Assembly (NCBI GenBank): GCA_016938655.1
Contig: JAFGUG010000009.1
Coordinates: forward strand, 1-64,000
DNA: 64,000 nt
Direction: 5' to 3'
Origin: Thiotrichales bacterium
GTDB taxonomy: Bacteria > Pseudomonadota > Gammaproteobacteria > Thiomicrospirales > Thiomicrospiraceae
Below the pieces are notes generated by a model. That model had not been told where the DNA came from. It searched no databases and saw only the letters and a program-made list of their open reading frames with translations. Every line of letters begins with the position of its first letter. Within the stretch, counting starts at the first letter, position 1. The position numbers and the translations under genes are program-made. Shown here one piece after another: positions 6,716 to 33,335 of the stretch.

Positions 6716-8713
6716 ATGGACAGAAGAGAATTTTTAACTTTAACAAGCAAACTTGCTGCATCAGCCGCCATTCCAGCCACTCTTTATGGGTGTGGTGGCG
6801 GGTCAAGTTCTTCTGTTGAATCACTGTCTTCAGTGGATGCAAGAGTCGTTGACATCAATACGCAACAGGCGACAATTGACTCTACCAATGGAAGTTTAAA
6901 CACAGCGTTAACGAATGATTTAATTGGTTCAAATTCTGCTAGCTCTTCAAGTTTGATTCGCGCAACCAACGTTGCAGGTACAATCTCTGACTTCTTTGCC
7001 ACCCGTACTCCAAGCCTTTATTTTACTACGGGCGGTAATAATGTCTTTAATGATGGTCACTACCTTGATTCATCAGCTACTTTAAGTGGAACCGAGTTTT
7101 GGCAAAAAGCCATTGATTCGCATGACCAAGCGTTTTTAGATTACAAGCAACAAACAGAAAAGTTGAAAGCAGCCTTACGTATTTTTGATGCAAAAAACGT
7201 TAGTGGAACTCAATCAAATGTTTCAACGGCTTCGGTTCGTTCTGTTTCATCTGCAAATACACGTGCTGAATCATCTGGCTTGGCGGATGTTTTAGATCAA
7301 ATAATTGGTTACATTGGTACAAATTTAATTAACGCTTTACTAAGCACAAGCACCGTTACCACGATTGTTAATGCATTAATTGCAATCAACAACTACCTAG
7401 TCAGCAACGCATTCACACAATCGGTTTTATCTGAAGTGTTTACGGCTTTGAGTGGTCTTCTCGATGGCATTAAAGAAGATTCGCTCAATGGATTGTCATT
7501 TGCTAATAAAAATCAAATATTACTGAGCTTATCTAAAATTAGTGTTGCCTCTGCTGCGGTATTAGCTAACAAGCGTATCAGCGAATTAGAAACAACCCAA
7601 AACGAAGATGAGTTCGTTGAGTCTCAACTATTTTCAACGGATGTTTTGAATAAGTTATCACTAAAGTGGTTAGCTTTAGGGCAGAGTTTAGTTAACAGTA
7701 CTGTTCAGACAACTACGGGTAAAATTGACGAAGCCGTCGCTATGGGTGAATATACCGGTGAAGGCGATAACATGGTTGCGGATGAAGAAGCGAGTAATAG
7801 TTTATTTCAAACATCCGCGATTTTATCAATGACTTCTCTTGCGATGAAGACCGTATTTGGTAATGTCAGCGGTCAACTAGATGAGGAAGTTGTAACAAAT
7901 ACAGGCTTTGAAACGTCTAGTGCTGCTGACTTGTATCGTCCAATATTTACTTCTACTCGTAACAGTTACGACCAAGAACTTCAAGCTAATGCAGTAAGTT
8001 TATCTTCAGCAACAGAAGCTGGGTATCAGCAAGAGCTTAATATCTCGTCTGTATCAACGGCTTCTATCTTGCCAGATGCTGAAATGCCTCAATCAACGGA
8101 TGAAAATGCAGAAACAATTTACAGTTATGCTGCAGAAATTGCTTCCGTGGGTACTGAGGTCACTGATTTAAGCGACTTAAACTTCGCTGAATTGCTGGCG
8201 ACTTATGCTTATAACTTTGCTTCAGATACAGAAAGCGACGCGTTTGAATTTGCAATGCAAGGTATGGAATACGGTTATCTATTTGCTTCTCAAGGTGAGG
8301 ACGTTGGTATTATGGCCGATCGTATTTTATGGATGGCGGTTCAAATTGGTGTGATGGCCGACCGTATCGGTGAAATGGCAGATCGTATCGTTTATATGTC
8401 GCAATTAATTGTCTACACTGAAATCTTAATAGTTGATTTTGGTATCTTAATTTACGGAGTTATTAAACAAATCAGTAACTCAATGCTAATGGCTTTAGCA
8501 CTTATATTAGACCGTGAGTGGTATGGTGATGTAGCCACAGAACAAGCCTCATCCGAAGATGTAATCTTAACAACTATTGGTGCCAATGTTACGCAAATGC
8601 TCACTAATATGAATGAGTACTCTTTAGCTGTTCTTGATAACCAAAGCGTTTTAAGAGAATCTACTCAGTCAGCCATTGACACAATTAACTTTGCAAGTAG
8701 TGTCGAGGCCTAA
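6716..8713 (+). CDS. Tat-type secreted lipoprotein of unknown function with C-terminal heptad repeats
   Basis: No family is recognised. The 665-residue protein begins with a twin-arginine signal (DRREFL, residues 2-7), a short hydrophobic segment and a lipobox-like LYGC, so Cys26 may be lipid-modified; a Gly/Ser linker follows. The body is Ser/Thr/Asn-rich and predicted helical. Residues about 532-590 form tandem 7-residue units of the type xMADRIx. The ATG at 6716 is chosen because AGAGGAAA lies just upstream and the twin arginines follow at once; an in-frame ATG at 6647 would bury the signal. Six bases separate it from the LolA-like gene, suggesting an operon. Export by Tat is inferred. Confidence 0.75.
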   Translation: MDRREFLTLTSKLAASAAIPATLYGCGGGSSSSVESLSSVDARVVDINTQQATIDSTNGSLNTALTNDLIGSNSASSSSLIRATNVAGTISDFFATRTPSLYFTTGGNNVFNDGHYLDSSATLSGTEFWQKAIDSHDQAFLDYKQQTEKLKAALRIFDAKNVSGTQSNVSTASVRSVSSANTRAESSGLADVLDQIIGYIGTNLINALLSTSTVTTIVNALIAINNYLVSNAFTQSVLSEVFTALSGLLDGIKEDSLNGLSFANKNQILLSLSKISVASAAVLANKRISELETTQNEDEFVESQLFSTDVLNKLSLKWLALGQSLVNSTVQTTTGKIDEAVAMGEYTGEGDNMVADEEASNSLFQTSAILSMTSLAMKTVFGNVSGQLDEEVVTNTGFETSSAADLYRPIFTSTRNSYDQELQANAVSLSSATEAGYQQELNISSVSTASILPDAEMPQSTDENAETIYSYAAEIASVGTEVTDLSDLNFAELLATYAYNFASDTESDAFEFAMQGMEYGYLFASQGEDVGIMADRILWMAVQIGVMADRIGEMADRIVYMSQLIVYTEILIVDFGILIYGVIKQISNSMLMALALILDREWYGDVATEQASSEDVILTTIGANVTQMLTNMNEYSLAVLDNQSVLRESTQSAIDTINFASSVEA

Positions 8714-8719
8714 TATTTA

Positions 8720-9475
8720 ATGAGATTAAACTCTTTCAAGATCAAGATTGCTTTAACATTGGCCCTTACAGCAGCAGTAACCCCATCTGTGGCAATGGAA
8801 ACCGCTGAAGAAATCTACAAAAAAGGCGTTAAGATTTTTGTTCATAAAAGCATTGGTGCGGTGATTGATTCCACCATTCGTTATGAGAACGGTGATGAAG
8901 AGAAGCGCGCGTTCTTTTTGGGTAAAAAAGAGCACGACAAAGATAACAGTTCAATCTTAATTCTTTTTCTTGAACCGGATGACATTAAATGCACTGCGGT
9001 TTTAGTGAATAAAGAGGGTGATGAAGACAAACGTTACGCTTATTTCCCGGCTTTAAAGCGGGTTCGCATTATTCCGGAAAGTGATAAGGGAAAAGAGGTG
9101 TTTGGTATTGGTATCTCTTACGAAGATCTTGGTGAGCCACAGGGAACGTTTGAAGAGCCCAAAGAAGTTGAACGTCTAGGAGTGGTTAATTATAAGTTAA
9201 CATTGGTTGATCATGACAAGACCTCAGAATATTTTATTGATTCAACGACTTTTAAATTGAACCAGATGGATGTTTATAAAAAGGGTAAGTTAGATAAAAC
9301 TATTGTGATTAATGAGATAAAGCCCTATTTTGGAGATGATTTAATTACCTCTTGGGACATAAATTATCCGAATAGTAGTCGCTCTATTAAATATTCAATA
9401 CGCCCAGAGTCCATTAAACAAGAGTTAAGCGATAGTCTTTTTCATAAAAACAAATTGAAACGCTGTAAGTTTTAA
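8720..9475 (+). CDS. LolA-like outer membrane lipoprotein-sorting family protein
   Basis: This is a 251-residue periplasmic protein with a signal peptide ending near PSVA (about residue 25). The central part, YAYFPALKRVRII followed by GIGISYEDLG, matches the LolA-like family (COG2834/PF17131 type), whose members carry lipids or lipoproteins and are commonly encoded next to MMPL/RND exporters, as here. It follows the Tat lipoprotein gene by six bases and is convergent to the RND/barrel pair. A lipid-carrier role between the inner-membrane pump and the outer membrane is inferred. Confidence 0.8.
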   Translation: MRLNSFKIKIALTLALTAAVTPSVAMETAEEIYKKGVKIFVHKSIGAVIDSTIRYENGDEEKRAFFLGKKEHDKDNSSILILFLEPDDIKCTAVLVNKEGDEDKRYAYFPALKRVRIIPESDKGKEVFGIGISYEDLGEPQGTFEEPKEVERLGVVNYKLTLVDHDKTSEYFIDSTTFKLNQMDVYKKGKLDKTIVINEIKPYFGDDLITSWDINYPNSSRSIKYSIRPESIKQELSDSLFHKNKLKRCKF

Positions 9476-9504
9476 AAAATAGCTCTAAGTTCTTATGTTG
9501 TATT

Positions 9505-9541
9505 AAAAAACCACCTTCAATTATTTTGAAGGTGGTTTTTT
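9505..9541. terminator. Bidirectional terminator between the LolA-like and RND genes
   Basis: A perfect 16-bp inverted repeat with five-base loop; the arm is six As followed by CCACCTTCAA and the other arm ends in Ts. It can end transcription in both directions between convergent genes. Confidence 0.9.
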
Positions 9542-9566
9542 TATGCGTCTATTTTCTTGGTGTGGC

Positions 9567-11408
9567 TTAGTTATTACGAGGCATTAATTTTGAAAAGAGG
9601 GTGGGCACAAAATAAATCAAAAACAAAAGATGGGCACTTAATAAAATCGCCAGTTCAATTCCAAACACCTTCATAAAACCATCATTTACAAGCCCCATAA
9701 GAGCCATGCTTAGAATCAAAAATACGTTCGATAATATAATGGGTTTAAATACGGTTTGAAAACAGTCCACGTTGTCCATTCGGTAAGTCATTAATATATG
9801 AATGACATTATCAGTTATTAGGCCAACAAATAGAATAATGGCAATTAAAGTCATTACCGATAGATCAATTTTAAAAAGACTGTGCATAAAAAACAGGACT
9901 GAAATTGCAAGCACAGCTGGTAGTAAGCTAACCAATACTGCGAACTTCCGGTAGCCAATCAAGAACAGTGTTGCAAGTAAGGTCAGCATGGATAAAACAC
10001 TCCAAAACATTTCATTTAAGAATATAGTTTGATAGCTGGCTATTTTTGATAAATGCCCTTCCAGTTCAACAGTAAATAGACTTTGCTCATTATTCAAAGA
10101 CTCAATACTTCTTTTTAATTCTATAAGATCATCAACGGGCTCCAATAAGCTGACGGCAGCAATATAGTTGGCAGTATTTTGGCTTGAGCCATAGAGATAT
10201 CGATCAACAGACATCATATCCAAACCCAGTTTAAATTGAGCAAATTTAGCAGGTGTCACACCTTCAAAAGACTCTTCGGTAAATGATTGATATAACGTGT
10301 TTAAATCTAATATAGGTTGAAACTTAATCTCTATTTTACGTTCTATTTCACTCACAAAAGTAGACAGTTGCTGATTGCACTTTAAGTTTCGCAGCGAACA
10401 GTCTTTTGATTGGATGGTTAATAAAATAGGTTGCGAAAGGCTACTTTTTGATTCGAAGCTTTTGATCTCACTTTGGTATGAGGACATACCTAGCGGGTTA
10501 AGATTGACGTTGACTGGGGAATACAAAATCAATAAGACAAACGATAATGTAAACAAGACTATTAGCTGTAAAACAGATTTCACTTTAAAGAGTGGGGCGC
10601 GCATTTTGAACCAATCTAAGGCGTGCGGCATTCTAACTCTGACTAACAGCCTAAAACTTAAGTAGATGGCTAATACGAGCACCCAAATCATTAATGATTT
10701 TCCAAAGTCACTGATAACGCCAAAGCCTGAGTAGTAAAGCAGAAAGGCGCTGAGACCTGTCGTGACCAATGAAGCCGATAAGCTCATTACTAAAGAGTAG
10801 GTCGCAACTCTGTTGTAGTAGACTTGATTTATTAATGTAAAGATATAAATGTATGAAAATAGTAGGGAAAGTAAGTACGCTGAATTTAATGCAATTTCAA
10901 AAAAGACGATGATACTTACTACAAAAGCAGAGTAGAATAAAACCTCACCAATGGTATTTAATACAAACTTTACCGATGTAAAAAAAGCCAAGAGTGGGAT
11001 CATAATAGGAATAAAAACGACTAAAAAGGTCTGAACATCAGATATAAACTCATCCGATAGTAGGCTTCCAACAATTGAGGTGCCCATAATGGATGAAGAG
11101 GTCAAGTCATCAATGACTTGATTATGTGCGTCTTCGTTAAAAAATACCAAAAACACATCACTTTTATCCACGACATTAATTACACCATCAATGAGTTTTT
11201 GTGATTCTAAGTCGTAAAGTGGTTCAGGGTCATTGGTAGAAACAAATAGATACTGGCTTTTTTCAATATTCAGGTTGTTGTGTTGTGACGTATTTTCATC
11301 AGGAAAAAACTGTTTCACATCTGTTTTTACAAGTTCAACAGAAGAGACGAGATAGGCATTAACTATTATTAAAAATGCAATCAGTAATAGTTTGGTGATT
11401 ACTTTCAA
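9567..11408 (-). CDS. RND/MMPL superfamily transporter, compact form
   Basis: The 613-residue inner-membrane protein has the duplicated RND layout: TM1 (about 5-25), a short periplasmic loop (about 26-125), TM2-6, TM7 (about 278-297), a second periplasmic loop (about 298-455) and TM8-12, with the TM10 signature GLITDNVIHIL replacing the usual GIGVDYAIH. Typical MMPL exporters have about 770-800 residues, so the first loop is strongly reduced. The start is TTG at 11408, overlapping the stop of the barrel gene (TTGA) with AAGG upstream. Together with the LolA-like protein it suggests lipid or hydrophobic-molecule transport; the substrate is unknown. Confidence 0.75.
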   Translation of the reverse strand: MKVITKLLLIAFLIIVNAYLVSSVELVKTDVKQFFPDENTSQHNNLNIEKSQYLFVSTNDPEPLYDLESQKLIDGVINVVDKSDVFLVFFNEDAHNQVIDDLTSSSIMGTSIVGSLLSDEFISDVQTFLVVFIPIMIPLLAFFTSVKFVLNTIGEVLFYSAFVVSIIVFFEIALNSAYLLSLLFSYIYIFTLINQVYYNRVATYSLVMSLSASLVTTGLSAFLLYYSGFGVISDFGKSLMIWVLVLAIYLSFRLLVRVRMPHALDWFKMRAPLFKVKSVLQLIVLFTLSFVLLILYSPVNVNLNPLGMSSYQSEIKSFESKSSLSQPILLTIQSKDCSLRNLKCNQQLSTFVSEIERKIEIKFQPILDLNTLYQSFTEESFEGVTPAKFAQFKLGLDMMSVDRYLYGSSQNTANYIAAVSLLEPVDDLIELKRSIESLNNEQSLFTVELEGHLSKIASYQTIFLNEMFWSVLSMLTLLATLFLIGYRKFAVLVSLLPAVLAISVLFFMHSLFKIDLSVMTLIAIILFVGLITDNVIHILMTYRMDNVDCFQTVFKPIILSNVFLILSMALMGLVNDGFMKVFGIELAILLSAHLLFLIYFVPTLFSKLMPRNN

Positions 11409-12802
11409 AGTTCAACCTTAAATTTAATGGCCGCTGTGTCATTAAGATACTGTTGTTCGGAATGGGTTAAATACTCTAAAGAGATCTGATAATTATCAAG
11501 TTCTAGCTGAACGCCTGAAAAGTTTGCCCAAACATCATAACTATCGTAAACACCGTATGTAAACATGTTTTGCAAACTAACGTCCCAATTTCCAAATCGT
11601 TTACTGTCCGTTTTGAATAGCCAAATAAAGTAATAAGCATCAAGTTCTGACGAATCAAACTTTGAGTACTGAAACTCTAAATTATTATAAAAGGTAGACT
11701 GATGATCGACGCCCAACCCTAAAGTGACCATTGAAGAGGTTCGGTAGATGAGTGGGAATTTATCTCGGTAACTAAGTTCAGCACGATAACCAAATTGGCC
11801 AATGGACGATTCATAATACAAGGCAAATTGATTATAACGAAAATACTCTAAGGCTTTTATGGGTTCGTTGTTTTCATCTTCTAGGTAATCGGCAATATAT
11901 TGCTCTTTGTCCTCTTCGGTACCCAATGCACCCACCGCAGAAACAAAGTCTGTATCAAATATAAAAATCGGCAAAGAGGAGTAGGCGCTGGTATGAACCG
12001 CTCCAAATGTGTAGTTATCTTCAGTGATTACAAAGTTGAGAAAAATAGACGTATTATCAAAGCGTGGGTCTTCATTTGGTAACTTGTCAAAGATATAATC
12101 AGACCCCGCATCTTTAGCGCCACCATCCTCATAAGCAGGTAACAAGACTTCTCGGCCGATTAAATCAAGATCCGAGTTCCCTGTATTTGTCACAATAAAC
12201 GGCACCACAGAATTCAACCCAAACTGAATTGAGTCACCAAAAAGCGTATTACTATCTTGGTCATAGGGTTTAAGGTATAAGCCAAAGGTGGTGTTGTCAT
12301 CTGGATAGGCATCTAATTTAACCATCCAGCTTGGCTTGTAGTGAATATTGACATTTGCATCATCGAAGTACTCAGCGCGCGTATTATTGAATACATCTAC
12401 AAAACTTAAGAAGTCCATTACCCCAATTTTACTGACAAATTTACCTGCTTTAAAATCGAAATTATCTGCTTCATACGCATATGAAAACTGATTTAATGAA
12501 ACTTCACTCTCAGGAACATTTCTGTACATAATGCCAACATCAACCGTGTAATCTTCACCTTGATACTGAGCTTCTGCTAGCCCTAAAACAGAGTCTTTGA
12601 AGTATTGGTTATCTAAAAAATTACGGTAAATTAAAGTAGTCTTGAATTCAGTATCGTCTGCTATATCGCTTACCCAGCTTGGATATTCAAATGTGGCTAC
12701 CTCAGACTCGTTAAGGTTGTTGCTCTCAGTTTGGCTTGCAAACAAATCCAATGGCATAAAAGGGGTAATAAAAAGTGCAAATATAGATGGATGAAACTGC
12801 AT
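11405..12802 (-). CDS. Predicted outer-membrane beta-barrel protein, distantly DUF1302-like
   Basis: A 465-residue protein with an N-terminal signal peptide (to about LFAS, residue 23), then alternating aromatic/polar strands typical of barrels. The segment FKAGKFVSKIGVMDFLSFVD followed by VFNN recalls the DUF1302 block with Lys/Gly-rich turn and DxxNP; similarity is weak. Its stop overlaps the RND start by four bases, so the two are coupled. DUF1302-type barrels are known to sit beside MMPL transporters and LolA-like or DUF1329 proteins. The ATG at 12802 has only a distant AGAGG, so translation start is less certain. Confidence 0.6.
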   Translation of the reverse strand: MQFHPSIFALFITPFMPLDLFASQTESNNLNESEVATFEYPSWVSDIADDTEFKTTLIYRNFLDNQYFKDSVLGLAEAQYQGEDYTVDVGIMYRNVPESEVSLNQFSYAYEADNFDFKAGKFVSKIGVMDFLSFVDVFNNTRAEYFDDANVNIHYKPSWMVKLDAYPDDNTTFGLYLKPYDQDSNTLFGDSIQFGLNSVVPFIVTNTGNSDLDLIGREVLLPAYEDGGAKDAGSDYIFDKLPNEDPRFDNTSIFLNFVITEDNYTFGAVHTSAYSSLPIFIFDTDFVSAVGALGTEEDKEQYIADYLEDENNEPIKALEYFRYNQFALYYESSIGQFGYRAELSYRDKFPLIYRTSSMVTLGLGVDHQSTFYNNLEFQYSKFDSSELDAYYFIWLFKTDSKRFGNWDVSLQNMFTYGVYDSYDVWANFSGVQLELDNYQISLEYLTHSEQQYLNDTAAIKFKVEL

Positions 12803-16426: not shown

Positions 16427-16452
16427 AAAAGTAAGCAGGCCTGCTTACTTTT
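16427..16452. repeat. 26-bp perfect palindrome carrying the dispersed AGCAGGCCTGCT element
   Basis: The left arm AAAAGTAAGCAGG is the exact reverse complement of the right arm CCTGCTTACTTTT, with an extra T after it. The core is the dispersed palindrome. Placed 77 bases after arsC, with A and T runs at the ends, the RNA hairpin could terminate transcription from either side. Confidence 0.85.
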
Positions 16453-16775
16453 TATCCTAACCAGAAAAGCTTCTAATAACTTGAGCAATTTAAAAACATT
16501 GTAAAATTCCTAAAGCTTAACACTCACAATTGAGAGTATTAATAACGAGCAGGGTTGAAAGGGGTCATGAATAAGACAAATCATCATCAGCTATTTTTAA
16601 AATAAAACCAATTTAACATAATATATATTATACGTATATTGATTCAGGTATCTAGACCAGGTTAAAGCTGTGTCAGGCTTATAACGATATGAAATGGTTC
16701 GACTAATTAAGTTATCAATACTTCGTTTTCCTCTTAAATGACTCAAAGCTAAATGTTAATAGTTTTTTACAGACG

Positions 16776-16803
16776 AAAAAAAACCGAGTTAACCCCGGTT
16801 TTT
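16776..16803 (-). terminator. Terminator of the antitoxin-like membrane protein gene
   Basis: AAAACCG (16780-16786) pairs with CGGTTTT (16796-16802); on the minus strand a run of eight or nine Ts follows. Confidence 0.75.
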
Positions 16804-16827
16804 AATGTTTATTAACGTTTTACTGTT

Positions 16828-17271
16828 TTAATGAAACATCGGTAAAACGATAAACAGCAATAACTCAATCACACCAACACCCACTGGCATCCAGGCTTTT
16901 GGAACTTTTTCAGACACCGCCTTTAGTCCAAAGAAAATACCACCAATAGCTAAAATATATGCGACCGGTGCTAATAAAATGGAAATGAACAATAAAGGAG
17001 CCAGTGCGACCATTGCCCAACTTGCTGTCACACTGTTGTTCGGGTTATAGGTTTTTGTATTACGCATATCATCTGGTCTGGAACTCGATGAGTGCAATCT
17101 TGAGATAATTGTATTTACGTCCGAGTCAGACAAAGAGCTTTGGACAACTTCGATATCTGTCATACCAAGTGTTATTTTTTTATTTTTATAAAGCGCTCTT
17201 ACCAAATCATCCCACTCAGCACTATCTGCTAATTGATCAACTATTTCATGCGCTTCTTGCTTGATTGACAT
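16828..17271 (-). CDS. Antitoxin-like N-terminal domain fused to a two-helix membrane domain
   Basis: A 147-residue protein of unknown function. Residues 1-60 (EAHEIVDQLADSAEWDDLV, then KNKKITLGMTDIEVV) resemble the small helical antitoxin-like proteins of the form VIEHLPDDASWDDLMYRIYVR...GLADAE; this comparison is from memory. Residues about 85-145 hold two hydrophobic segments (WAMVALAPLLFISILLAPV and the C-terminal VGVGVIELLLFIVLPMF) with a short third between them, as in small DUF4190-like proteins. The start at 17271 has a very strong GGAGGAG. No toxin gene adjoins it; it stands alone, divergent from rpoN. Confidence 0.6.
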   Translation of the reverse strand: MSIKQEAHEIVDQLADSAEWDDLVRALYKNKKITLGMTDIEVVQSSLSDSDVNTIISRLHSSSSRPDDMRNTKTYNPNNSVTASWAMVALAPLLFISILLAPVAYILAIGGIFFGLKAVSEKVPKAWMPVGVGVIELLLFIVLPMFH

Positions 17272-17605
17272 AAAAACTCCTCCAGTTCTGGTTATCTCAT
17301 TCAAATTGAAATTTTGTATAGCCGTTATATTAGCAGGTTCCACCTAATTTGAAATAGCCAAAAAATGATTTAAATCATATCTTGTGCCAGTTTTTTAAAT
17401 TTTCAAATTTATTACATGCGAATGTTTACGTTTTCTTAAGTTTTCGACTATTATAGTTATTAATTAAAACACTGAAATAACGGTATATAGCTTGCTTAGG
17501 CCGTGATTTTAGTTCAACGTCCAAAATAAAAAATCAATATTGAGCGATTAACCTCCACCCTGTTTTGCTTTACAGAACCATATATTTGATTAGGAGTTAA
17601 GTTTC
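17272..17605. other. Divergent intergenic region upstream of rpoN
   Basis: No gene is seen in these 334 bases. A candidate rpoN promoter lies at 17425-17454, and the strong ribosome site of the leftward membrane protein gene abuts the left end. Confidence 0.5.
17425..17454 (+). promoter_or_regulatory. Candidate sigma-70 promoter of rpoN
   Basis: TTTACG (17425-17430) and TATTAT (17449-17454) are 18 bases apart, about 150 bases before the rpoN start. Matches are moderate. Confidence 0.4.
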
Positions 17606-19114
17606 ATGGCAATGATGCCTGGTTTACAAATTAATGTGGGTCAACAACTAAAGTTAACCCCTCAACTGCAGCAATCAATCAAAATTCTTCAATATTCTGC
17701 GCTTGAAGTTCAGCAAACGATTGAAGCAACCCTTGAATCAAACTATATGCTTGAGGTTGAAGAGGAAGGCCTGTCTGACGAAGACAAATCTAATGACCTA
17801 CTTGATAGTTCTGCAAAAGATTCAGAAGAGCGTAACCCACAGTCTGAACAGCCCATTGATATTAATGACAATGAAAATATTGGTGAGGACATGGACGTTG
17901 ATTGTAATTGGGAAGAGGTTTATTCAGATTACACCTCAACCAAAACAAGCTCTCAAACAACCTCCTCAGATGATTTTGTTGCCGCCGAAAACTACACCTC
18001 AGCAGAAAAAAGCCTGCATGATCAACTTTATTGGCAGTCTGATATTTATCAATGGGCAGAAAACGAAGAGCTCATTGCAGACTTTATTATCGACGCAATT
18101 AATGAAGAAGGTTATTTAGTTTCCCCTCTTCCAGAACTCTTAGATTCTTTAAACGATCAGTATCCAGAAGCATCATTTACGCTTGACATGGTTGAGTCGG
18201 TTTTAAAAATCATTCAACAATTCGAACCCACAGGTGTTGGAGCAAGAAGCATACAAGAGTCACTCCTTTTGCAATTAGCCAATATGGTTCAAACCCCTTA
18301 TGTGGTCACTGCAAAACAGCTCATCAGTGAAAACTTTGATTGGTTAACTTATCACGACCATAAACGAATCAAAAAAATGTATGGTTTAAATGATGAAGAG
18401 CTGACCACCCTTTTCAAATTAATTCAAACCCTTAACCCCCGTCCTGGTCGTGAATTTTCCGCTTCTGACTCCGAGGTTATTATTCCTGATTTAAGATTAA
18501 AGAGAGTTAAAGATGGCTGGTTTGTCGAGTTAAATGCGGACGCTTTTCCACGTTTAACGGTTAACGCCTCTTACGTAGACCTTGCATCGCAAATGCATGA
18601 CAACGAGCAGACAAAAAAAATTAAAGAACAACTTATTGAAGCCAAAGGTCTAATAAAAAGTATTCATAGCCGTGGTGAAACACTTTTAAAGGTTGCAACT
18701 TTTATTGTAGATAAACAACGTGCCTTTTTTGAAGAAGGTGAATTAGCGATGCAACCCCTTGTTCTCAGAGATGTCGCCGAGCACTTAGGTTTGCATGAAT
18801 CGACTATCTCCAGAGCAACCAATCAAAAATACATGCAAACACCGCGCGGCACTTTAGAACTTAAGTACTTCTTTTCATCGGGTGTTAGTCAGTATGGAAG
18901 TGCCGATCAATCAGCCATCTCGATTAAAGCGCATATTAAAGCTTTAGTTGATAAGGAAGATCCTAAAAAACCTTTAAGTGATAGTAAGCTTATGGATCTT
19001 TTAGAACAAGATAAAGAGATCACGGTTGCACGACGAACAATTGCAAAGTACCGTGAAGCACTTGGCATTCCGTCGTCTAGTGAACGTAAGAAACTGAATA
19101 AGTTTAAACTTTAG
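17606..19114 (+). CDS. rpoN: RNA polymerase sigma-54 factor
   Basis: Alternative sigma factor directing RNA polymerase to -24/-12 promoters with enhancer-binding activators. The 502-residue protein has the glutamine- and leucine-rich activator domain (about 1-50, QQLKLTPQLQQSIKILQYSA), an acidic region II (about 50-120), the core-binding domain, a helix-turn-helix (about 390-415, HLGLHESTISRATNQKY) and the RpoN box ARRTIAKYRE (475-484). AGGAG lies nine bases before the ATG. The usual neighbours lptB, hpf and ptsN are absent on both sides. Confidence 0.96.
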   Translation: MAMMPGLQINVGQQLKLTPQLQQSIKILQYSALEVQQTIEATLESNYMLEVEEEGLSDEDKSNDLLDSSAKDSEERNPQSEQPIDINDNENIGEDMDVDCNWEEVYSDYTSTKTSSQTTSSDDFVAAENYTSAEKSLHDQLYWQSDIYQWAENEELIADFIIDAINEEGYLVSPLPELLDSLNDQYPEASFTLDMVESVLKIIQQFEPTGVGARSIQESLLLQLANMVQTPYVVTAKQLISENFDWLTYHDHKRIKKMYGLNDEELTTLFKLIQTLNPRPGREFSASDSEVIIPDLRLKRVKDGWFVELNADAFPRLTVNASYVDLASQMHDNEQTKKIKEQLIEAKGLIKSIHSRGETLLKVATFIVDKQRAFFEEGELAMQPLVLRDVAEHLGLHESTISRATNQKYMQTPRGTLELKYFFSSGVSQYGSADQSAISIKAHIKALVDKEDPKKPLSDSKLMDLLEQDKEITVARRTIAKYREALGIPSSSERKKLNKFKL

Positions 19115-19151
19115 CTTGACGCTAAACGGATGTTTTTTTTTGGATATCACG

Positions 19152-19157
19152 TATAAT
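19152..19157 (+). promoter_or_regulatory. Candidate -10 box before the bicupin gene
   Basis: A TATAAT lies 48 bases before the ATG of the bicupin gene; no convincing -35 sequence is seen at the right distance. Confidence 0.35.
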
Positions 19158-19204
19158 CTAAATCTATCAAATTTTAATTATTTTAAGCGATAGGTGCCCC
19201 AACC

Positions 19205-20134
19205 ATGAATAGAGTAAATGTAGAACAAATTCAACAGGTTGCCCAACAACAATGGGAGCAACAAGCTGACTTTAAAGAGTACATGTCCGCTGTCAATCCA
19301 AACATGCCAAAAATCGATGTAATCGACTACCCAAATACCCTTCATGAATCAGGTGAAACTCGTATTATTTCATTTGATTTATCTGAACAACTCAACACAG
19401 ACTACCCTGCTACTTCTCCTAACTTAATGGCGAGTTACTTGCGCATTTGCCAAGATGACACTTTAAAAACCGACGCTAAAGCCACTTCACAGATGTTTTA
19501 CGTTATTCGTGGTGCAGGCAAAACTCAAATGTCTCACGGCACAATTAATTGGAAAGCAGGTGATTTATTCACACTTCCTGGCGTACCAGATGCACTTCAT
19601 TCTGCATCAGAAGACAGTGCAATCTACTGGGTTAATGATGCCCCTTTACTTAAGTATTTAGGTGTCACCCCAAACGAAGAGCGTTTTGAACCGGTTCTTT
19701 ACACCAAAGAACGCCTTTGTAAAGAGCTCGCATCGGTAAGAGAAGAGGCTGCTGGAAGAAATCGCACAGGGATCTTATTGGCTAACCCAAACTTCCCAAA
19801 AACAATGACTCTAACGCATACACTTTGGTCGCTTTACAACGCTCTACCTGCAGGCGTTAGCCAAAAAGCGCACCGCCATAACTCGATTGCGCTAGATTAC
19901 TGTGTTGCCGCAGGGCCTGATACTTATACCTTAATTGGTAAGGAAATTGACGAGAATGGTAATATCATCAACCCAATAAAGGCGATGTGGAAACCGGGTT
20001 GCGTTTTTATCACGCCTCCAGGTTACTGGCACTCACATCATAACGACTCAGCTGAAGATGCAATCGTACTACCTATTCAAGACGCTGGTATTATTATGAA
20101 TATGCAAGTTCTGGACTTTCAGTACATTCGATAG
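19205..20134 (+). CDS. Bicupin protein, gentisate 1,2-dioxygenase-like
   Basis: A 309-residue protein with two cupin barrels. The first (about 95-145) has FYVIRGAGKTQM and DLFTLPGVPDALHSA; the second (about 215-285) has QKAHRHNSIALDY and FITPPGYWHSHHND, supplying His ligands for a metal. The family (COG3435 type) includes gentisate and hydroxynaphthoate dioxygenases, but no aromatic catabolism genes are nearby, so the substrate is unknown. It appears monocistronic between rpoN and a two-component system. Confidence 0.75.
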   Translation: MNRVNVEQIQQVAQQQWEQQADFKEYMSAVNPNMPKIDVIDYPNTLHESGETRIISFDLSEQLNTDYPATSPNLMASYLRICQDDTLKTDAKATSQMFYVIRGAGKTQMSHGTINWKAGDLFTLPGVPDALHSASEDSAIYWVNDAPLLKYLGVTPNEERFEPVLYTKERLCKELASVREEAAGRNRTGILLANPNFPKTMTLTHTLWSLYNALPAGVSQKAHRHNSIALDYCVAAGPDTYTLIGKEIDENGNIINPIKAMWKPGCVFITPPGYWHSHHNDSAEDAIVLPIQDAGIIMNMQVLDFQYIR

Positions 20135-20195
20135 TTAAAGGCTTTATATTAAGCCGTTATGACCACTGACCTCACTTAAGCAAAACGTTTTATGT

Positions 20196-20225
20196 TTGAC
20201 AAGGTTATGAATCACAATCATTGTG
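20196..20225 (+). promoter_or_regulatory. Candidate promoter with overlapping operator dyad upstream of the response regulator
   Basis: A TTGACA (20196-20201) is followed by the dyad CACAAT-C-ATTGTG (20213-20225), which would cover the -10 region. The -10 match itself (CATTGT at 17-base spacing) is weak. Autoregulation by the adjacent response regulator is a guess. Confidence 0.35.
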
Positions 20226-20277
20226 CTCTGAATGTTCAACACGTTTTAGCGAAATAACCATTTTTTAGAAGGTACTT

Positions 20278-20991
20278 ATGCAAAATACAGACTACACCAT
20301 TGCGGTAATTGAAGATGACCCAATTCAAAGAGCCAGTCTAGTTGAAGCCCTTCAACAGCAAGGTTTTAAAATTAAGGCGTTCGAAGACAGGCTAACTGCT
20401 GAAGAGTCTTTCAATCAAAGCCTTCCTGATATTGTTATCTCAGATATTATTCTTGGTAATGAGATGGATGGTGGTTTTGATTTGGCTAAACACTTATTGA
20501 GTTTTAACCAACCTATCCCGATTATTTTTCTATCGGAAAGACAGTCAGAATTTGATATCTACACCGGTCATGCCTTAGGCGCGATTGATTATCTTCCAAA
20601 GCCAATCAGTTTGAATGTGTTGATTGTTAAGGTCAAAAATCTATTGCGCATTACTTCAACTAGCCGCGAAAGCATCCCACAAGATTTAGAGAAATCCATT
20701 ATTCCGGAACTAAGAATTGAAAGCGCCCAATACAAGGCTTATTGGCATGATCAAGCGCTTGACTTAACAGCCACCGAGTTTGAAATGCTCAAACAGTTTG
20801 CGCTTGCGGGTGAAGATAATGTGGTCTCTTATGATAACTTGCAAACCTCAACCCAAGGGGTTGTTGAACGTAACACGATTAATACCCACATTTGCCGAAT
20901 TCGAAATGCGTTCAAAAAAGTAACGCCTGAGTTTAACAAAATCCATAATGAATACGGCCGTGGTTACAGTTGGCACGATAAAAATAAATAG
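20278..20991 (+). CDS. PdsR-like OmpR-family response regulator
   Basis: A 237-residue two-domain regulator: receiver with acidic pair Asp13-Asp14, phospho-acceptor Asp56 and Lys in YLPKPIS, then a C-terminal winged helix with ALDLTATEFEML and NTINTHICRIRNAF. The blocks DGGFDLAKHL, IIFLSERQSEFD and KIHNEYGRGYSW resemble the response regulator of the proteobacterial dedicated sortase system (TIGR03787 type), from memory. The kinase gene follows after 86 bases. No sortase gene is in the window. Confidence 0.82.
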   Translation: MQNTDYTIAVIEDDPIQRASLVEALQQQGFKIKAFEDRLTAEESFNQSLPDIVISDIILGNEMDGGFDLAKHLLSFNQPIPIIFLSERQSEFDIYTGHALGAIDYLPKPISLNVLIVKVKNLLRITSTSRESIPQDLEKSIIPELRIESAQYKAYWHDQALDLTATEFEMLKQFALAGEDNVVSYDNLQTSTQGVVERNTINTHICRIRNAFKKVTPEFNKIHNEYGRGYSWHDKNK

Positions 20992-21077
20992 TTAAGCGTG
21001 CGGTATAAATTTGTTTTTTATATCTATTTATACCGAGCACTTGAATACCTTAACCCCTAAAAGGTAACCATTCTGTC

Positions 21078-22637
21078 ATGCCATTACGCCGCTTTAACTT
21101 TCGATTATCTATCCGCAACCGTTTCTTTATATTATTGTTATTATTAACAATATTACCTTTTTTAGCCTATCGTTTTGCCATTGACTTACATCGGCTCTTA
21201 CTTAACAATCAGGCGATTGTACAACAACAGACCGTTGAAAACTTAGCGCTTATCTTGCAAAACAGAACCGATTTGTGGGCCTTACAAATTCAGTCTGGTG
21301 ATCCAACACGACTATCACACCTTAATTTAGAAAACTCCGTACTTTGGATTGTTAACGAACGCGGCTTGACCACCTATGTTGTTGGTAAACTTCCCAACGA
21401 TAACAGTCGTATAGACAATGAAGAGATCTTTACCACTATTGGTAAAAATCTTATAAAAACACTGGCAACGGTGATCCCCTACTCTCTGCCCTACCCCTAT
21501 CCACAAAGCCAAACGCCAGAGTTAAAGTTAATTACCCACGCTTTAAAAGGCGAAACCTTTCAACAATATCGTATGGACGACTCACAACAACCCATTTCAC
21601 TTATGTCCGCAACCGCTCTGAGGTTTAAAAACAATATCATTGGTGCGCTAGTACTTGAAGAGAAAATGGAGAATCTCTTTAGTGATACCCTTAACTACTT
21701 CTATCGCTTGATTGGAATTGGGGCGATGATTTTTTTAATTGTGACCATTGGTGCATTGCTACATACCGCCTCTATTTCCAATCGAATCATACGGTTAGAT
21801 AATGACGTAAAACGTACCTTTAACTTACAAGGTCGCTTAAAAGATCACTATTTTCCAGATAAACAACGCCGATTTTATAATGATGAGGTCTCCGATTTAC
21901 GGCATCATATTCATGAAATGCTAGGTCAGCTAGCTGGCTATGAACGTTATTTGAAACAGCTTCCTAAAACTTTACGACATGAACTGCACAACCCTCTAAA
22001 CCGTTTATCCATGGCGCTGAGTTTATTAGAGAAAGAGACCCATCACCCACAACTTGATTCTGCTAAACATGCTGTAGAACAGTTAAAACAAATCATCGCG
22101 TCACTCTCTGAAGCCACGAGCATTGAAGAGAGCTTAAACCAAGGTGAACAAGAGCCTTTTCCAATTGGAGAAATGCTTTACCACTACCTTAAAAATAGCC
22201 AAACCTTACACCCTGAATATAACTTAAAATTTGATAATTCAATCTCTTCAGACACCTTAATCATGGGGGATGGCTTTATGATTGAACAGATGATGGATAA
22301 GCTACTGAGTAATGCAAAAGACTTTTCAGACGGTAAAGTACCGATCGAAGTGCAATGCTTTTCAAAGACTGGGAAAATCATTATCCAAGTTGATAACAGC
22401 GGTCCGAGTCTTCCAAAGGGCTTCGAAAAACAAATATTTGATGGTATGACCTCTATTAGAACAATGAACCAAGATCAACAAACCCATCTTGGACTGGGTT
22501 TACATATTGTAAAGTTGATTACCTTATTTCATAACGGTGAGATACAGGCAGAAAATATTTTATTGAAAGCCAACCCTAAAATAGATGGGGTACGCATGAC
22601 GGTTACCCTTCCTGAATTGGTAAAAGCGACAGCATAA
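21078..22637 (+). CDS. Membrane sensor histidine kinase paired with the PdsR-like regulator
   Basis: A 519-residue inner-membrane kinase: TM1 (about 15-33), a periplasmic sensor region (about 34-210), TM2 (about 213-233), a HAMP-like linker, the dimerisation box with His301 in LRHELHNPLNRLSM, and the ATPase domain with N-box LLSNAKDFSDG, DNSGPSLP and GLGLHIVKLI. The opening (LLLLTILPFLAYRFAIDLHR) resembles the PdsS kinase start, but the protein is shorter than the ~700-residue sortase-system kinases. It is cotranscribed with the upstream regulator. The signal is unknown. Confidence 0.82.
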   Translation: MPLRRFNFRLSIRNRFFILLLLLTILPFLAYRFAIDLHRLLLNNQAIVQQQTVENLALILQNRTDLWALQIQSGDPTRLSHLNLENSVLWIVNERGLTTYVVGKLPNDNSRIDNEEIFTTIGKNLIKTLATVIPYSLPYPYPQSQTPELKLITHALKGETFQQYRMDDSQQPISLMSATALRFKNNIIGALVLEEKMENLFSDTLNYFYRLIGIGAMIFLIVTIGALLHTASISNRIIRLDNDVKRTFNLQGRLKDHYFPDKQRRFYNDEVSDLRHHIHEMLGQLAGYERYLKQLPKTLRHELHNPLNRLSMALSLLEKETHHPQLDSAKHAVEQLKQIIASLSEATSIEESLNQGEQEPFPIGEMLYHYLKNSQTLHPEYNLKFDNSISSDTLIMGDGFMIEQMMDKLLSNAKDFSDGKVPIEVQCFSKTGKIIIQVDNSGPSLPKGFEKQIFDGMTSIRTMNQDQQTHLGLGLHIVKLITLFHNGEIQAENILLKANPKIDGVRMTVTLPELVKATA

Positions 22638-22641
22638 AAAA

Positions 22642-22673
22642 ACCGCTTAATGAATTTAACATCATTAAGCGGT
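22642..22673. terminator. Bidirectional terminator between kinase and SPOR genes
   Basis: A perfect 12-bp stem ACCGCTTAATGA/TCATTAAGCGGT with an eight-base loop, flanked on the left by seven As, lies between convergent genes. Confidence 0.88.
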
Positions 22674-22719
22674 ATTCGTTTTGTTCATTTGCTAAACGCT
22701 TACAAATAATTGCCAACCG

Positions 22720-23952
22720 CTATGGAAGCTTGGATGATAAATCCTTTATTTTTCTTACCCAAGGTGCAATGCCAAAGTCGTTCTTAATTTGTCTTGATAC
22801 TTGATTCGCTTCGTTTCGACTCGTATAACTTCCGACGACCAATACATATCTAGTTGATTTATCACGAGTTTGCTCAATAATACGACTCTCTTTAAGGCCT
22901 TTTTGCTTAACCATACTAAGCAATGCTTGTTTATCTGACATACTGGCTAACTGCAAAATATAGTGCTGTTCTGGTTGAGATAACAACCACTTAACATCCT
23001 CACTGTAATGATCAATGGGGGCTTTGACAACCGGCTCGACTGGGGTTGCAACTTCTTCAACCATCTTAACCAGAGGTTGTTTGATTCTTGGCGCGGAAAC
23101 ATCTGGCTCTGCTGGCTGGTTAAGCTGTTGGGTCTCAACCGAAGAATCACCATTTAACAATACTTTATCCTTTAACTCTGGCTGAACGTCCCCTTTCATT
23201 AAGACATCTAAAATCATCGATAATTTTTCATCGATACGGCGTTCTAAACCACTTGTATAGGCTTGTAACTTTTCATCAAGAATGCTTTCTGTCAGAACTT
23301 GTTGGCTTGAAACCACATTAGTTGCAACGCTCTGGGTTGGCTCCTGTTTAGTCTCTTGTTTCGGTTCTTTTTTTTCAACTAACTCTGACGCTGTTACCAA
23401 ACCAGTTTCTGGGTTTAAATTATTTCTCTCTAACTGCGCGAGTAGAGTTAACTGTTGTTTTTGCAGTGTTTCAAGTTGCTCTTCAAGCTCAATGACTCTT
23501 TGTTCTAAGGCCACAAAACGCTCTGGTGTCCCACCAGTGGCAACGGTTTGCTCAAGTTTACTCATAGATTCTTGAAGTTGAACGGCTTCATCTTTGCTGG
23601 TTTTCTTAACTTCCTGTACTTCTTGTAACTCACTGTTCACTGTGCTGTAGGCAATATAAAGAACGCCCAGAATAGTGAGTAAGAGCGACAGCAAAATAAT
23701 AATTCCAAAGAACGAAGCTTTGCTGCTGCCAGAAACAGGTGCGGATGATTGAGTTGAGGTTTGTGTGCCTCGTTTAGGTGGTTCGCTTTTACTTGGCATA
23801 ACGTCCTCTGCGGCATTTAGCCAATCTTTTAGAGTGTGACCATCCGTGTCAGGTGTATTGGTTCTGTTGGATGAAATGTGTTGTGCCTGGTTTTCAATCG
23901 CTTTGAGTAACTCAGCGCGTTCTTTTTCCAGTTCTGAAATGGTTTGGGCCAT
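22720..23952 (-). CDS. SPOR-domain membrane protein
   Basis: A 410-residue bitopic protein. A short cytoplasmic part (1-83) is followed by one TM helix (about 84-106, FFGIIILLSLLLTILGVLYI), a coiled-coil rich periplasmic stalk (about 110-290) and a C-terminal SPOR domain (about 325-405; YILQLASMSDKQALLSM, RYVLVVGSYTSRNEANQV). SPOR domains bind denuded peptidoglycan at the division site, as in DamX and FtsN. The lack of further domains fits a DamX-like accessory division protein. It is monocistronic. Confidence 0.82.
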   Translation of the reverse strand: MAQTISELEKERAELLKAIENQAQHISSNRTNTPDTDGHTLKDWLNAAEDVMPSKSEPPKRGTQTSTQSSAPVSGSSKASFFGIIILLSLLLTILGVLYIAYSTVNSELQEVQEVKKTSKDEAVQLQESMSKLEQTVATGGTPERFVALEQRVIELEEQLETLQKQQLTLLAQLERNNLNPETGLVTASELVEKKEPKQETKQEPTQSVATNVVSSQQVLTESILDEKLQAYTSGLERRIDEKLSMILDVLMKGDVQPELKDKVLLNGDSSVETQQLNQPAEPDVSAPRIKQPLVKMVEEVATPVEPVVKAPIDHYSEDVKWLLSQPEQHYILQLASMSDKQALLSMVKQKGLKESRIIEQTRDKSTRYVLVVGSYTSRNEANQVSRQIKNDFGIAPWVRKIKDLSSKLP

Positions 23953-24043
23953 AAAATTTAGACAATATATAAGCTAGAAGTGAAAATTATTGTAAAATGC
24001 TTTGCATCAAAAAGATACACACATTATACAGGAATCGACAAAA

Positions 24044-24187
24044 ATGCCAGATATGAACAGCGTAGGATCAGCCTTACTGATTACTTTGGGATTTTTAACC
24101 GTATCTGTCTTAGTTGTTGGTGCCGCCATGTGGTGGTTATATCGTTTTTTTAAAAATAACGATGATCAAGATATTGACAAAAAATAA
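24044..24187 (+). CDS. Small single-pass membrane protein (47 residues)
   Basis: Unrecognised. The chosen ATG at 24044 has CAGGAA ten bases upstream; the product has one TM helix (about residues 10-31, SALLITLGFLTVSVLVVGAA), then WWLYRF and an acidic/lysine tail (NDDQDIDKK). It is divergent from the SPOR gene by about 90 bases. The clear ribosome site and helix support a real small protein. Confidence 0.55.
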   Translation: MPDMNSVGSALLITLGFLTVSVLVVGAAMWWLYRFFKNNDDQDIDKK

Positions 24188-24202
24188 CCTTTAAAAACTT
24201 AA

Positions 24203-24210
24203 CAGGCCTG
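24203..24210. repeat. Dispersed palindrome copy between small membrane protein gene and ychJ
   Basis: CAGGCCTG followed by CTGT; it lies between convergent 3' ends, as do most intergenic copies. Confidence 0.8.
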
Positions 24211-27182: not shown

Positions 27183-28253
27183 TTATTTCACCTCAACAAT
27201 AGGCACTCGTTGAGTGACGCCACACAACAACTCGTAACCAATCGTGCCACAAAGTTGTGCCACCTCATCGACCGTCAAACTATCGTCTCCCCATAACACA
27301 GCGAGGTCGCCAATTTGTATGGTTTGAGCCATCTCAGTGACGTCTACACAAATCATATCCATCGAAACGCGACCAATTAACGGCTGCTTGTGACCATTAA
27401 TCAATACAGGCGTTCCTTCTGGCGCATGCCGAGGGTAACCGTCTCCGTAGCCGATAGCGACAATGGCCACATAAGTATCACGCATCGCTTGCCAGGTATT
27501 ACCGTAGCCAACAAACTCACCCTTAGGAATCCATTTAAGCGAGGTCACTTCAGAAGCCAATGTCATAACTTGCTTTAGGTCGCTTTTCAAACAGGGTTGC
27601 TGTGCAGATCCGTAAAGCATAATACCGGGACGAACCCATTCAAAATGGGTTGTTTTAAAACCTTGCAGGCCTGCTGAATTTGCCAGACTTTTAGGGTAGT
27701 TGAATTGTGCAGCGACACTATTAAAAGCGGCAATTTGCTTTTCAGTGAAAGTAATCGACTCATCTGCGGACGCTAAGTGCGACATAAGGTGAATTTGAAA
27801 TGGTTTTTTGCTTTGTTGAAGTTGATCAATAACCCACTCAACTTGGTCTAAATCAAACCCTAAGCGATGCATACCCGTATCAATTTTGACCCAAACGTTA
27901 ATTTGGCCTTGAAATGAGGATTGTAATAACCAATCAAGCTGATGTTTCGAATGAATCACTAAATCTAAACGGTGCTGATAAACTAAAGCCAGTTCGTTTT
28001 CACCAAACAGGCCTTCTAATAACAAAATGCGATGTAAAAACCCCTCTTGTCTTAAAATCAACGCTTCATCAATCGAAGCCACTCCAAAACCGTCTGCAGA
28101 ACTTAAACTGTGTGCCACTCGTAAAATGCCATGACCATAACCGTTGGCTTTTATAACGGCCAAGACTTTACTGTTTGGGGCTGTGGATTTCACAACTTGT
28201 AAATTGTGATGCAATGCAGCTAAGTGAATATAGGCTTTAGTAGGACGATACAT
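27183..28253 (-). CDS. alr: Alanine racemase
   Basis: A PLP enzyme making D-alanine for peptidoglycan. The 356-residue protein has RPTKAYIHLAALHHNL at the start, the PLP lysine 35 in VIKANGYGHG, and the second-domain blocks FVGYGNTW and AIGYGDGYPRHAPEGTPV. The ATG at 28253 gives the usual family N-terminus and lies 16 bases after dnaB, a common gammaproteobacterial pairing. A CAGGCCTG copy (27666) encodes Ala-Gly-Leu. Confidence 0.94.
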   Translation of the reverse strand: MYRPTKAYIHLAALHHNLQVVKSTAPNSKVLAVIKANGYGHGILRVAHSLSSADGFGVASIDEALILRQEGFLHRILLLEGLFGENELALVYQHRLDLVIHSKHQLDWLLQSSFQGQINVWVKIDTGMHRLGFDLDQVEWVIDQLQQSKKPFQIHLMSHLASADESITFTEKQIAAFNSVAAQFNYPKSLANSAGLQGFKTTHFEWVRPGIMLYGSAQQPCLKSDLKQVMTLASEVTSLKWIPKGEFVGYGNTWQAMRDTYVAIVAIGYGDGYPRHAPEGTPVLINGHKQPLIGRVSMDMICVDVTEMAQTIQIGDLAVLWGDDSLTVDEVAQLCGTIGYELLCGVTQRVPIVEVK

Positions 28254-28269
28254 AAATATTAGCGCGACC

Positions 28270-29721: not shown

Positions 29722-29825
29722 AGTCGGCAAGGGTTTCTAATGTTTTTAAAGGGAACTTATTATAAGCTAAAAATGAATGCCAGAGGATGACATAAATAGA
29801 ATCGATTTGATTGAATTTTGGGCAT

Positions 29826-29863
29826 AAAAAAAGCGATGTCACATAATATGACATCGCCTTTTT
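29826..29863 (-). terminator. Terminator of the rpsF-rpsR-DUF2232-rplI operon
   Basis: A 9-bp stem GCGATGTCA/TGACATCGC with loop of seven, followed on the minus strand by a U-rich run (AAAAAA on the plus strand). It separates rplI from dnaB. Confidence 0.88.
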
Positions 29864-29892
29864 AGAATTAAAGCAGAGATGAAGTTAATAGA

Positions 29893-30348
29893 TTAAGCTT
29901 CAACAACCGCCTTAATATCTACCGTAATTGAAGCAACTACATCTGTGTGTAATTGAACATCAATTTCGTATGTACCAACGTGGCGGATAGCGCCTTCAGG
30001 CATACGAACATGACGGCGTTCGATTTCAAAACCAGCTGCAGCTAACGCATCAGCAATATCTTGAGTTCCAACAGATCCGAATAGCTTACCTTCGTCACCA
30101 GAAACCGCTTCAATAGCAATTACTTGTCCGTTTAGGTTTTCGTAGGTACCTTCAGCAACCGCTAATAATGCAGCGGCTTCTTTTTCTAGCTCAGCACGAA
30201 TCTTTTCAAACTCTGCAACGTTTTCTTTCGTTGCTGCTTTTGCTTTTCTTTGTGGAATTAGGAAGTTACGAGCAAAGCCAGCTTTAACTGAAACTTGTTC
30301 ACCTAATTGTCCTAAATTTTGTACTTTTTCAAGCAGAATAACATTCAT
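29893..30348 (-). CDS. rplI: 50S ribosomal protein L9
   Basis: A 151-residue protein with the conserved L9 start MNVILLEKVQNLGQLGEQV, the KAGFARNFLIP turn, the long connecting helix and the C-terminal domain (GKLFGSVGTQDIADAL). It closes the rpsF operon, after the DUF2232 gene by 15 bases. Confidence 0.97.
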   Translation of the reverse strand: MNVILLEKVQNLGQLGEQVSVKAGFARNFLIPQRKAKAATKENVAEFEKIRAELEKEAAALLAVAEGTYENLNGQVIAIEAVSGDEGKLFGSVGTQDIADALAAAGFEIERRHVRMPEGAIRHVGTYEIDVQLHTDVVASITVDIKAVVEA

Positions 30349-30363
30349 CGTTAGACCCTTAAT

Positions 30364-31254: not shown

Positions 31255-31290
31255 TCAGCTACCTTCTATTTTTAAATCTTCAACAATTTA

Positions 31291-31873: not shown

Positions 31874-31898
31874 TCGTATTCTCCTTATGGATGATAAA

Positions 31899-31932: not shown

Positions 31933-31967
31933 AAGGATTTTCTAGGCACAGTGCCTGAAAGGCGCGA

Positions 31968-32782: not shown

Positions 32783-32805
32783 TAAACTAACCTATTGAAT
32801 ATTAA

Positions 32806-33333: not shown

Positions 33334-33335
33334 AT

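Follow-up and report, generated by a model that had tools for sequence, protein, structure and literature searches.

A linked four-gene envelope set with a compact RND-type pump and a repeat-rod Tat lipoprotein, a possible trans-envelope conveyor of Thiomicrorhabdus and Campylobacterota

A contig of a Thiotrichales bacterium, of which the first 64,000 nucleotides were analyzed (hereafter the window), carries four genes for a predicted twin-arginine translocation (Tat) lipoprotein, a LolA-like periplasmic carrier, a compact pump of the resistance-nodulation-division (RND) type, and a protein that resembles an outer-membrane barrel. The four genes form one linked unit whose layout is constant in two phyla. 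With a probability of roughly 45%, they constitute one system, a trans-envelope conveyor of the RND/LolA-family/DUF1302-barrel kind with the lipoprotein as its outer-membrane-anchored partner. The source assembly comprises 108 contigs (95.66% complete, 7.72% contaminated), and its genus is taken as Thiomicrorhabdus on the basis of a named relative.

A linked unit with constant layout

The original prediction had described four envelope genes at 6716-12802, in two coupled pairs converging on one terminator, and all four are present where it placed them (Table 1). Within the pairs, 6 bp separate the lipoprotein and carrier genes, while the barrel and pump genes share 4 bp (the TTG start of the pump lies over the barrel stop). 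The intergenic region 9476-9566 folds into a single hairpin (-31.3 kcal/mol, z -7.3) with an A run on its 5′ side and a T run on its 3′ side, so that transcription could be stopped from both sides; the shared terminator is thereby supported, although the hairpin is absent from the output of a simple terminator scan.

Table 1. Positions of the four genes and associated features in the window (aa, amino acids)
Feature	Positions	Strand	Basis
Tat-signal lipoprotein, 665 aa	6716..8713	+	Sequence; lipobox and twin arginines (RR) read by eye
Rod core of the lipoprotein, ~residues 464-650	8105..8665	+	Repeat self-match; cross-phylum identity
LolA_like periplasmic carrier, 251 aa	8720..9475	+	PF17131; signal peptide read by eye
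Terminator-like hairpin common to both convergent pairs	9505..9541	.	Fold of 9476-9566
Compact RND/MMPL-type inner-membrane pump (predicted), 613 aa, TTG start	9567..11408	-	Structure model; structure searches; profile alignment
Outer-membrane-barrel-like protein (putative), 465 aa, remote DUF1302 relative	11405..12802	-	PF06980 match of an orthologue

The distribution of the set was surveyed in 76 genomes, including the window's own and 32 from the genus, and in a Campylobacterota family (151 genomes around G081), the latter with a rod query and a pump profile. Strong lipoprotein and strong pump matches occur in the same five genomes, all within the genus (the window's own, G007, G018, G021, and G026), and the other 27 of the 32 have neither. 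Additional lipoprotein matches, in G044 and G066, cover only the rod motif in proteins of ~270 aa, and additional pump matches, in G037 and G057, are weak (E 3e-4) and lie in longer reading frames. Among the 151 Campylobacterota, 29 genomes gave a rod match at E <= 0.001 and 49 a match to the pump profile, and strong rod matches (E < 1e-70, frames of 540-700 aa) coincide with strong pump matches (E < 1e-100) in the same eight. In three genomes (G083, G204, and G208), rod matches of ~1e-45 were found in frames of 418-440 aa with no pump match; no remaining rod match is better than 1e-7. Apart from G140, which is discussed below, pump matches outside the eight are no better than 4e-11 and lie mostly in reading frames of 700-1040 aa. 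Lipoprotein, carrier, and pump are found together in Thiomicrorhabdus, Sulfuricurvum, Sulfurimonas, and a Campylobacterales metagenome-assembled genome (MAG).

Nine sets, four in the genus and five in one Campylobacterota family, are complete enough to be measured; two at contig ends (L027, L032), one broken across contigs (G007), and two inspected for lipoprotein and pump only (G096, G113) were not counted. The convergent order and the 4-bp overlap of barrel and pump genes are found in all nine. The lipoprotein and LolA-like genes are likewise adjacent in each, from 113 bp of overlap to 22 bp apart when the longest open reading frames (ORFs) are used, and no set leaves room for a further gene. 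The original prediction had named co-conservation of all four genes as support for one system and separate gain and loss of the pairs as a refutation; neither survey showed the latter, G140 being the possible exception. The identity matrices of the components are also correlated (r 0.70-0.97); they are dominated by the split between the two phyla and were not used as evidence.

In the broken set of G007 (MAG NP51), the contig ends that cut it (L022:1-421 and L023:11536-11943) carry the same ORF stretch in identical form, which would fit a repeated element within the carrier/pump region, and the lipoprotein is split into two ORFs. In three Campylobacterota sets (L029:5737-7629, L030:14445-16334, and L031:6423-8282), a protein of ~260 aa overlaps the barrel gene and is followed by a divergent protein of ~330 aa; the L031 copies gave an autotransporter-barrel match below the cut-off and no family, respectively. 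These genes were rejected as a fifth and sixth core component, because they have no BLAST match in L082 and L083 (genomes G122 and G130) and because the barrel-side neighbor in Thiomicrorhabdus 6S3-12 is a DUF481 gene.

With regard to the genomic site, the set of the window sits between a RelA/SpoT-like gene and dusA (names given from reading of the sequence, not from a family search), and dusA regions with 1.5-kb flanks were compared in 29 congeners. The site is empty in 13 of them, where the RelA/SpoT-like gene lies within ~410 bp of dusA, and in two more the distance is within ~1.2 kb. No RelA/SpoT match occurs in the 1.5-kb flank of the other 14, which are G018 (where the set and a glycosyltransferase gene lie between the RelA/SpoT-like gene and dusA), three short contigs (L101, L114, and L118), and ten where another neighbor must be present. 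In G021, RelA/SpoT stands beside dusA and the set is elsewhere in the genome. When mapped on a DusA tree covering 30 genomes, the set requires five changes for its five host species, no fewer than shuffled labels do. The set is scattered over the genus tree, and we infer that its four genes are gained, lost, or relocated together.

The G+C content of the four-gene stretch is 0.373, against 0.413 for the window, and 3 of 116 sliding windows of equal size are lower. As a sign of recent import this is weak, and a recent common donor is unlikely, because the G+C content of the set follows that of its host, from 0.36 to 0.61. The palindrome CAGGCCTG has 24 copies in the window, at sites from 3878 to 60087, with none between 6412 and 14213, which had been regarded as a weak hint of separate origin; this gap carries no weight, since two others (16436-24203 and 27666-36142) are of similar or greater length. 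By an arithmetic estimate from base composition alone, ~0.4 copies of the palindrome would be expected, and five copies extend to AGCAGGCCTGCT.

The four components

The carrier belongs to the LolA_like family (PF17131, E 5.5e-19, 69 bits against a cut-off of 30), and a remote solved relative was found in PDB entry 3bk5 (E 3.3e-7). PF17131 is also above the cut-off in L031, in L082, and in the carriers of all five set-bearing genomes of the genus, while DUF1329 matches the carrier below the cut-off only. Three profiles had been suggested for the window proteins, and only this one matched; PF03176 and PF06980 gave no match at E <= 1.

The pump of the window has no Pfam match above the cut-off and no match in NCBIfam. 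Its AlphaFold model, of moderate confidence (predicted local distance difference test score, pLDDT, 61; predicted template modeling score, pTM, 0.54), contains twelve long helices in RND order. The first loop, between the first two long helices, has ~95 residues and the second ~155, which agrees, within a model of this confidence, with the strongly reduced first loop described from sequence. The best Foldseek matches of the model are the mycobacterial proteins MmpL4 (E 9e-10; template modeling scores 0.47/0.41), MmpL5, and MmpL3, followed by Dispatched, Patched, NPC1, SecDF, and HpnN. A second structure aligner (VIA) gave Z 27.2 to MmpL5, with a root-mean-square deviation (rmsd) of 4.9 over 336 residues. 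Twelve helices and two large periplasmic loops place the modeled fold in the RND class. At the profile level, eight aligned pumps gave a weak match to HpnN (E 0.045), and hhalign aligned the second half of the pump profile with the first half of an MMPL pump of the same genus (E 1.7e-5, probability 78.5). Residue D533, in the tenth transmembrane helix (TM10), is invariant in all eight pumps and aligns with an aspartate of this same-genus protein, which we take for the MMPL relay aspartate. MMPL-type pumps carry a proton-relay aspartate in both TM4 and TM10, and the mycobacterial MmpL proteins export lipids and siderophores.

The fourth gene of the set encodes a putative barrel, presumably located in the outer membrane; the window copy, like the pump, has no match in NCBIfam. 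PF06980 (DUF1302) is above the cut-off in one of the ten barrels scanned, that of Sulfuricurvum at L031 (38.8 bits against 23.2), and a search of the PDB with the barrel profile found no relative.

The lipoprotein begins with MDRREFLTLTSKLAASAAIPATLYGC, in which a twin-arginine signal and a lipobox are followed by a Gly/Ser-type, glycine-rich linker, a poorly conserved helical region, and a conserved rod core. Read by eye, the lipobox cysteine is present in all nine complete sets and the RR motif in eight, the ORF of G079 as read beginning past the RR site. On these two features it is classed as a Tat lipoprotein, with Tat export and acylation predicted. No family was above the cut-off in Pfam, NCBIfam, or PHROGs, so the earlier statement that it has no recognized family holds for the libraries tried. 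A profile search of the PDB returned two weak matches to a heme oxygenase fusion (E 0.06 and 0.41), which were not credited.

The rod core starts with 11-residue repeats that run into 7-residue repeats with a MADRI motif (IGxMADR). For the window copy, the self-match z is 4.5 with an offset of 11 residues and 8.7 with an offset of 7; offset-11 values elsewhere are 7.8 (G026), 13.8 (L033), and 18.1 (L037), and the offset-7 value in G026 is 10.4. Between the phyla (four against five sets), mean identity is 67% from the GMEYGY motif to the C-terminus; the lipoprotein part before that motif reaches 27%, and carrier, pump, and barrel reach 31%, 27%, and 26%, respectively. Stand-alone rod-core proteins are encoded at five other loci, in a Sulfurimonadaceae MAG, three Proteobacteria MAGs, and a Desulfobulbaceae MAG. 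None of these genomes contains the compact pump (no match in two, weak matches in frames of more than 1000 residues in three). Judged by eye, the rod proteins of L034 and L036 have no signal peptide and those of L087 have Sec-type leaders. In a class-wide survey of 321 genomes, the rod core was detected at E <= 1e-8 in five (that of the window, G026, G066, and two others in which the match is short). The core is therefore rare and portable, and its conservation has a cause other than contact with the pump or the barrel.

Several other occurrences of the rod were observed. A stand-alone protein at L037:656-1825 carries roughly ten FATHGMDLATM-type 11-residue repeats in a row. Tandem pairs of ~380-410 aa proteins with short rod-motif matches occur in two Campylobacterota genomes (L086:5283-7685 and L087:6847-9147). 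On plasmid NZ_CP095398.1 of the haloarchaeon Natribaculum luteum (L119:5704-6189), a 161-aa protein has a Tat-type leader and a C-terminal IGEMADRIGEMADRI helix matching that of the rod, and two further Natribaculum plasmids match as well. These three plasmids were the result of plasmid and phage searches, as a 40-residue match to one query; a second query had no match.

Proposed mechanism and alternative readings

We infer the direction of transport, the proton drive, the cargo, and the role of the rod as follows. Driven by protons through the single conserved relay aspartate D533, the RND pump would lift a hydrophobic or acylated cargo from the inner membrane, the LolA-like protein would ferry it over the periplasm, and the barrel would insert it in the outer membrane or pass it across. 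The fourth component would be the Tat lipoprotein, whose probable anchoring site is the outer membrane, as a glycine follows the lipobox cysteine, an arrangement that leads to the outer membrane under the sorting rule of Escherichia coli. Its rod of 11- and 7-residue repeats may bind or organize the delivered material, or self-assemble, at the outer membrane. A free hydrophobe or lipid is slightly favored as the cargo over the lipoprotein itself. Compositional relatives, namely AmeABCD, the Tween 20 proteins of Pseudomonas putida, and an alkane-induced pair, have been linked to hydrophobes, and transport of lipids as such may be envisaged.

Several observations weigh against such a conveyor. 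PF03176 matched none of the eight pumps scanned (E <= 1 or 0.5), and the Foldseek superpositions are loose, with template modeling scores of 0.31-0.51 on the length of the pump and an rmsd of at least 16 Å among the 50 matches listed. As the alignment is read here, the TM4 equivalent of the relay aspartate is not acidic in any of the eight pumps, so that a proton drive could be impaired. Nine of the barrels scanned, including the copy in the window, have no relevant Pfam match. The structure model of the lipoprotein is poor (mean pLDDT 44), with no fold readable. At a contig end of G140, part of a pump (E 2.7e-19) and a barrel are present, with no full lipoprotein match. In addition, the rod is more than twice as strongly conserved as its partners and is present in genomes without the compact pump, which indicates a function independent of the conveyor.

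These two features of the rod fit an alternative in which the Tat lipoprotein is itself the cargo of a dedicated export line. Tat would deliver the folded protein, the RND pump would replace LolCDE at the inner membrane, the LolA-like protein would carry the acylated lipoprotein, and the barrel would place it on the outer membrane or the cell surface. This proposal is doubtful on the whole; it is nevertheless a serious one, because the rod core is used elsewhere without a conveyor. The lipoprotein and LolA-like genes are neighbors in all nine sets, rod conservation is independent of the partners, and conveyor-free rod proteins have no signal, Sec-type leaders, or Tat-type leaders, as expected of a functional domain deployed in different compartments and here by a line of its own. 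Moreover, the sister module L132 contains an ABC (ATP-binding cassette) permease of the MacB/FtsX type, to which LolC and LolE belong. On the other hand, a Cys-Gly lipoprotein should travel by the ordinary Lol system under the E. coli rule, the MMPL and ABC modules found in the genus showed no noticeable lipoprotein gene (no search was aimed at one), and the related sets in the literature, so far as the available parts of the reports go, are tied to hydrophobes, with no lipoprotein cargo described. In its fullest form, a proton-driven line displaying at the cell surface a self-assembling rod of 11/7 repeats, with the compact pump in place of LolCDE, the idea is unlikely. If it is true, a lipid-modified protein would be handled by an RND pump in bacteria, as Hedgehog is by Dispatched.

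The lifestyle of the hosts alone would suggest zero-valent sulfur (rings or hydrophobic polysulfanes), handled for extracellular storage or uptake with the rod as a coating, since Thiomicrorhabdus, Sulfuricurvum, and Sulfurimonas are sulfur oxidizers. This is very unlikely, as only 5 of the 32 genomes possess the set although the genus as a whole oxidizes sulfur, and no sulfur gene was recognized among the few neighbors scanned, in which no search was aimed at sulfur genes. We know of no RND pump that moves sulfur. According to a 2023 paper, the membrane proteins moving S0 lack experimental confirmation (PMC10045233). It is scarcely credible that two independent two-gene units merely lie side by side; the pairs stand convergently on opposite strands, so that each needs its own promoter, but in two phyla and at several genomic sites they occur together in an unchanging layout, which contradicts their independence.

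Comparison with known systems

Lines built from RND, LolA-family, and barrel proteins are known and have few known cargoes. The compact version described here appears to move as a block and is absent from the site in close relatives, so its gain and loss can be compared, and its fourth component is a candidate for either the cargo or the receptor of that cargo. In the former case, the set would be an example of lipoprotein export by an RND pump. As a repeat family, the rod domain is described in none of the libraries tried; bacteria and a haloarchaeon encode it, in some proteins with an export signal and in others without one. In literature searches that reached only parts of the papers, none was found on the rod motif and none was recognized as describing this four-gene set.

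Sets of related composition have been described in several bacteria. In Castellaniella, AmeABCD combines a DUF1302 protein, a LolA-superfamily DUF1329 protein, a COG4447 protein, and an HAE3 RND pump, and its deletion lowers monoterpene tolerance (PMC6394551). PP_0765/0766/2018/2019 of P. putida are essential on Tween 20 (PMC10866462), and a protein with MMPL and LolA-like domains, together with a predicted porin, was induced on a C28 alkane (PMC6304351). It was also reported that iron-regulated operons of Bacteroidetes pair MMPL with a LolA-like protein (PMC10434189).

The set of the window resembles AmeABCD of Castellaniella defragrans and the P. putida set in having a putative DUF1302-type barrel, a periplasmic LolA-superfamily protein, an RND-type pump, and one further component. 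The three-part core is linked in all nine sets, the pump being assigned by its model, the carrier by Pfam, and DUF1302 through one orthologue. The likeness to MMPL/LolA-like/DUF1302 sets claimed in the original prediction is borne out in part: the pump model matches MmpL/RND structures, and DUF1302 is above the cut-off in one of the ten barrels. In contrast to AmeABCD, the fourth component here is a Tat lipoprotein with a repeat rod instead of a COG4447 protein, the carrier matches PF17131, with DUF1329 below the cut-off only, the pump has 613 aa rather than 787, and the genes form two convergent pairs. PF14870 (PSII_BNR), which we take to stand for COG4447, was above the cut-off in none of the seven set-bearing genomes searched (one weak match in G122), whereas control genomes were positive. 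Thus, the set may work like an Ame-type line but is not a member of AmeABCD, because it has no place for COG4447, its pump fails the MMPL model, and DUF1302 is matched by one orthologue only.

Other modules of the genus are also comparable. The module at L131:3975-8352 consists of an MMPL pump, a LolA_like carrier, and a third gene; it shares with the window an RND pump, a PF17131 carrier, and a further gene taken for a barrel. Its pump, however, has 784 aa, belongs to PF03176, and finds its best NCBIfam match in HAE3, below the cut-off; its third gene is not detectably related to the window barrel, and no lipoprotein was noticed there, none having been searched for. At L132:5737-9739, a MacB_PCD/FtsX-type ABC transporter is combined with a LolA_like gene and a further gene, and L133:5067-9197 is assigned to the same type by gene order (its ABC genes were not scanned). 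Both have a PF17131 carrier beside a gene of 431-455 aa taken for a barrel, as in the window, but an ATP-driven engine instead of an RND pump, and no lipoprotein was noticed, again with none searched for. These MMPL and ABC modules suggest that carrier and barrel are a common second half to which different engines can be attached. The pump model also shares the fold of HpnN, MmpL3/4/5, and other RND lipid transporters, while the window pump has no family-level sequence match; to our knowledge, these transporters have no LolA_like or Tat-lipoprotein partners. Although the type of line is known, the set of the window has a compact pump as its engine and a Tat lipoprotein added, and it is this combination of a compact pump with a fourth component bearing an 11-to-7-residue repeat rod that is new here.

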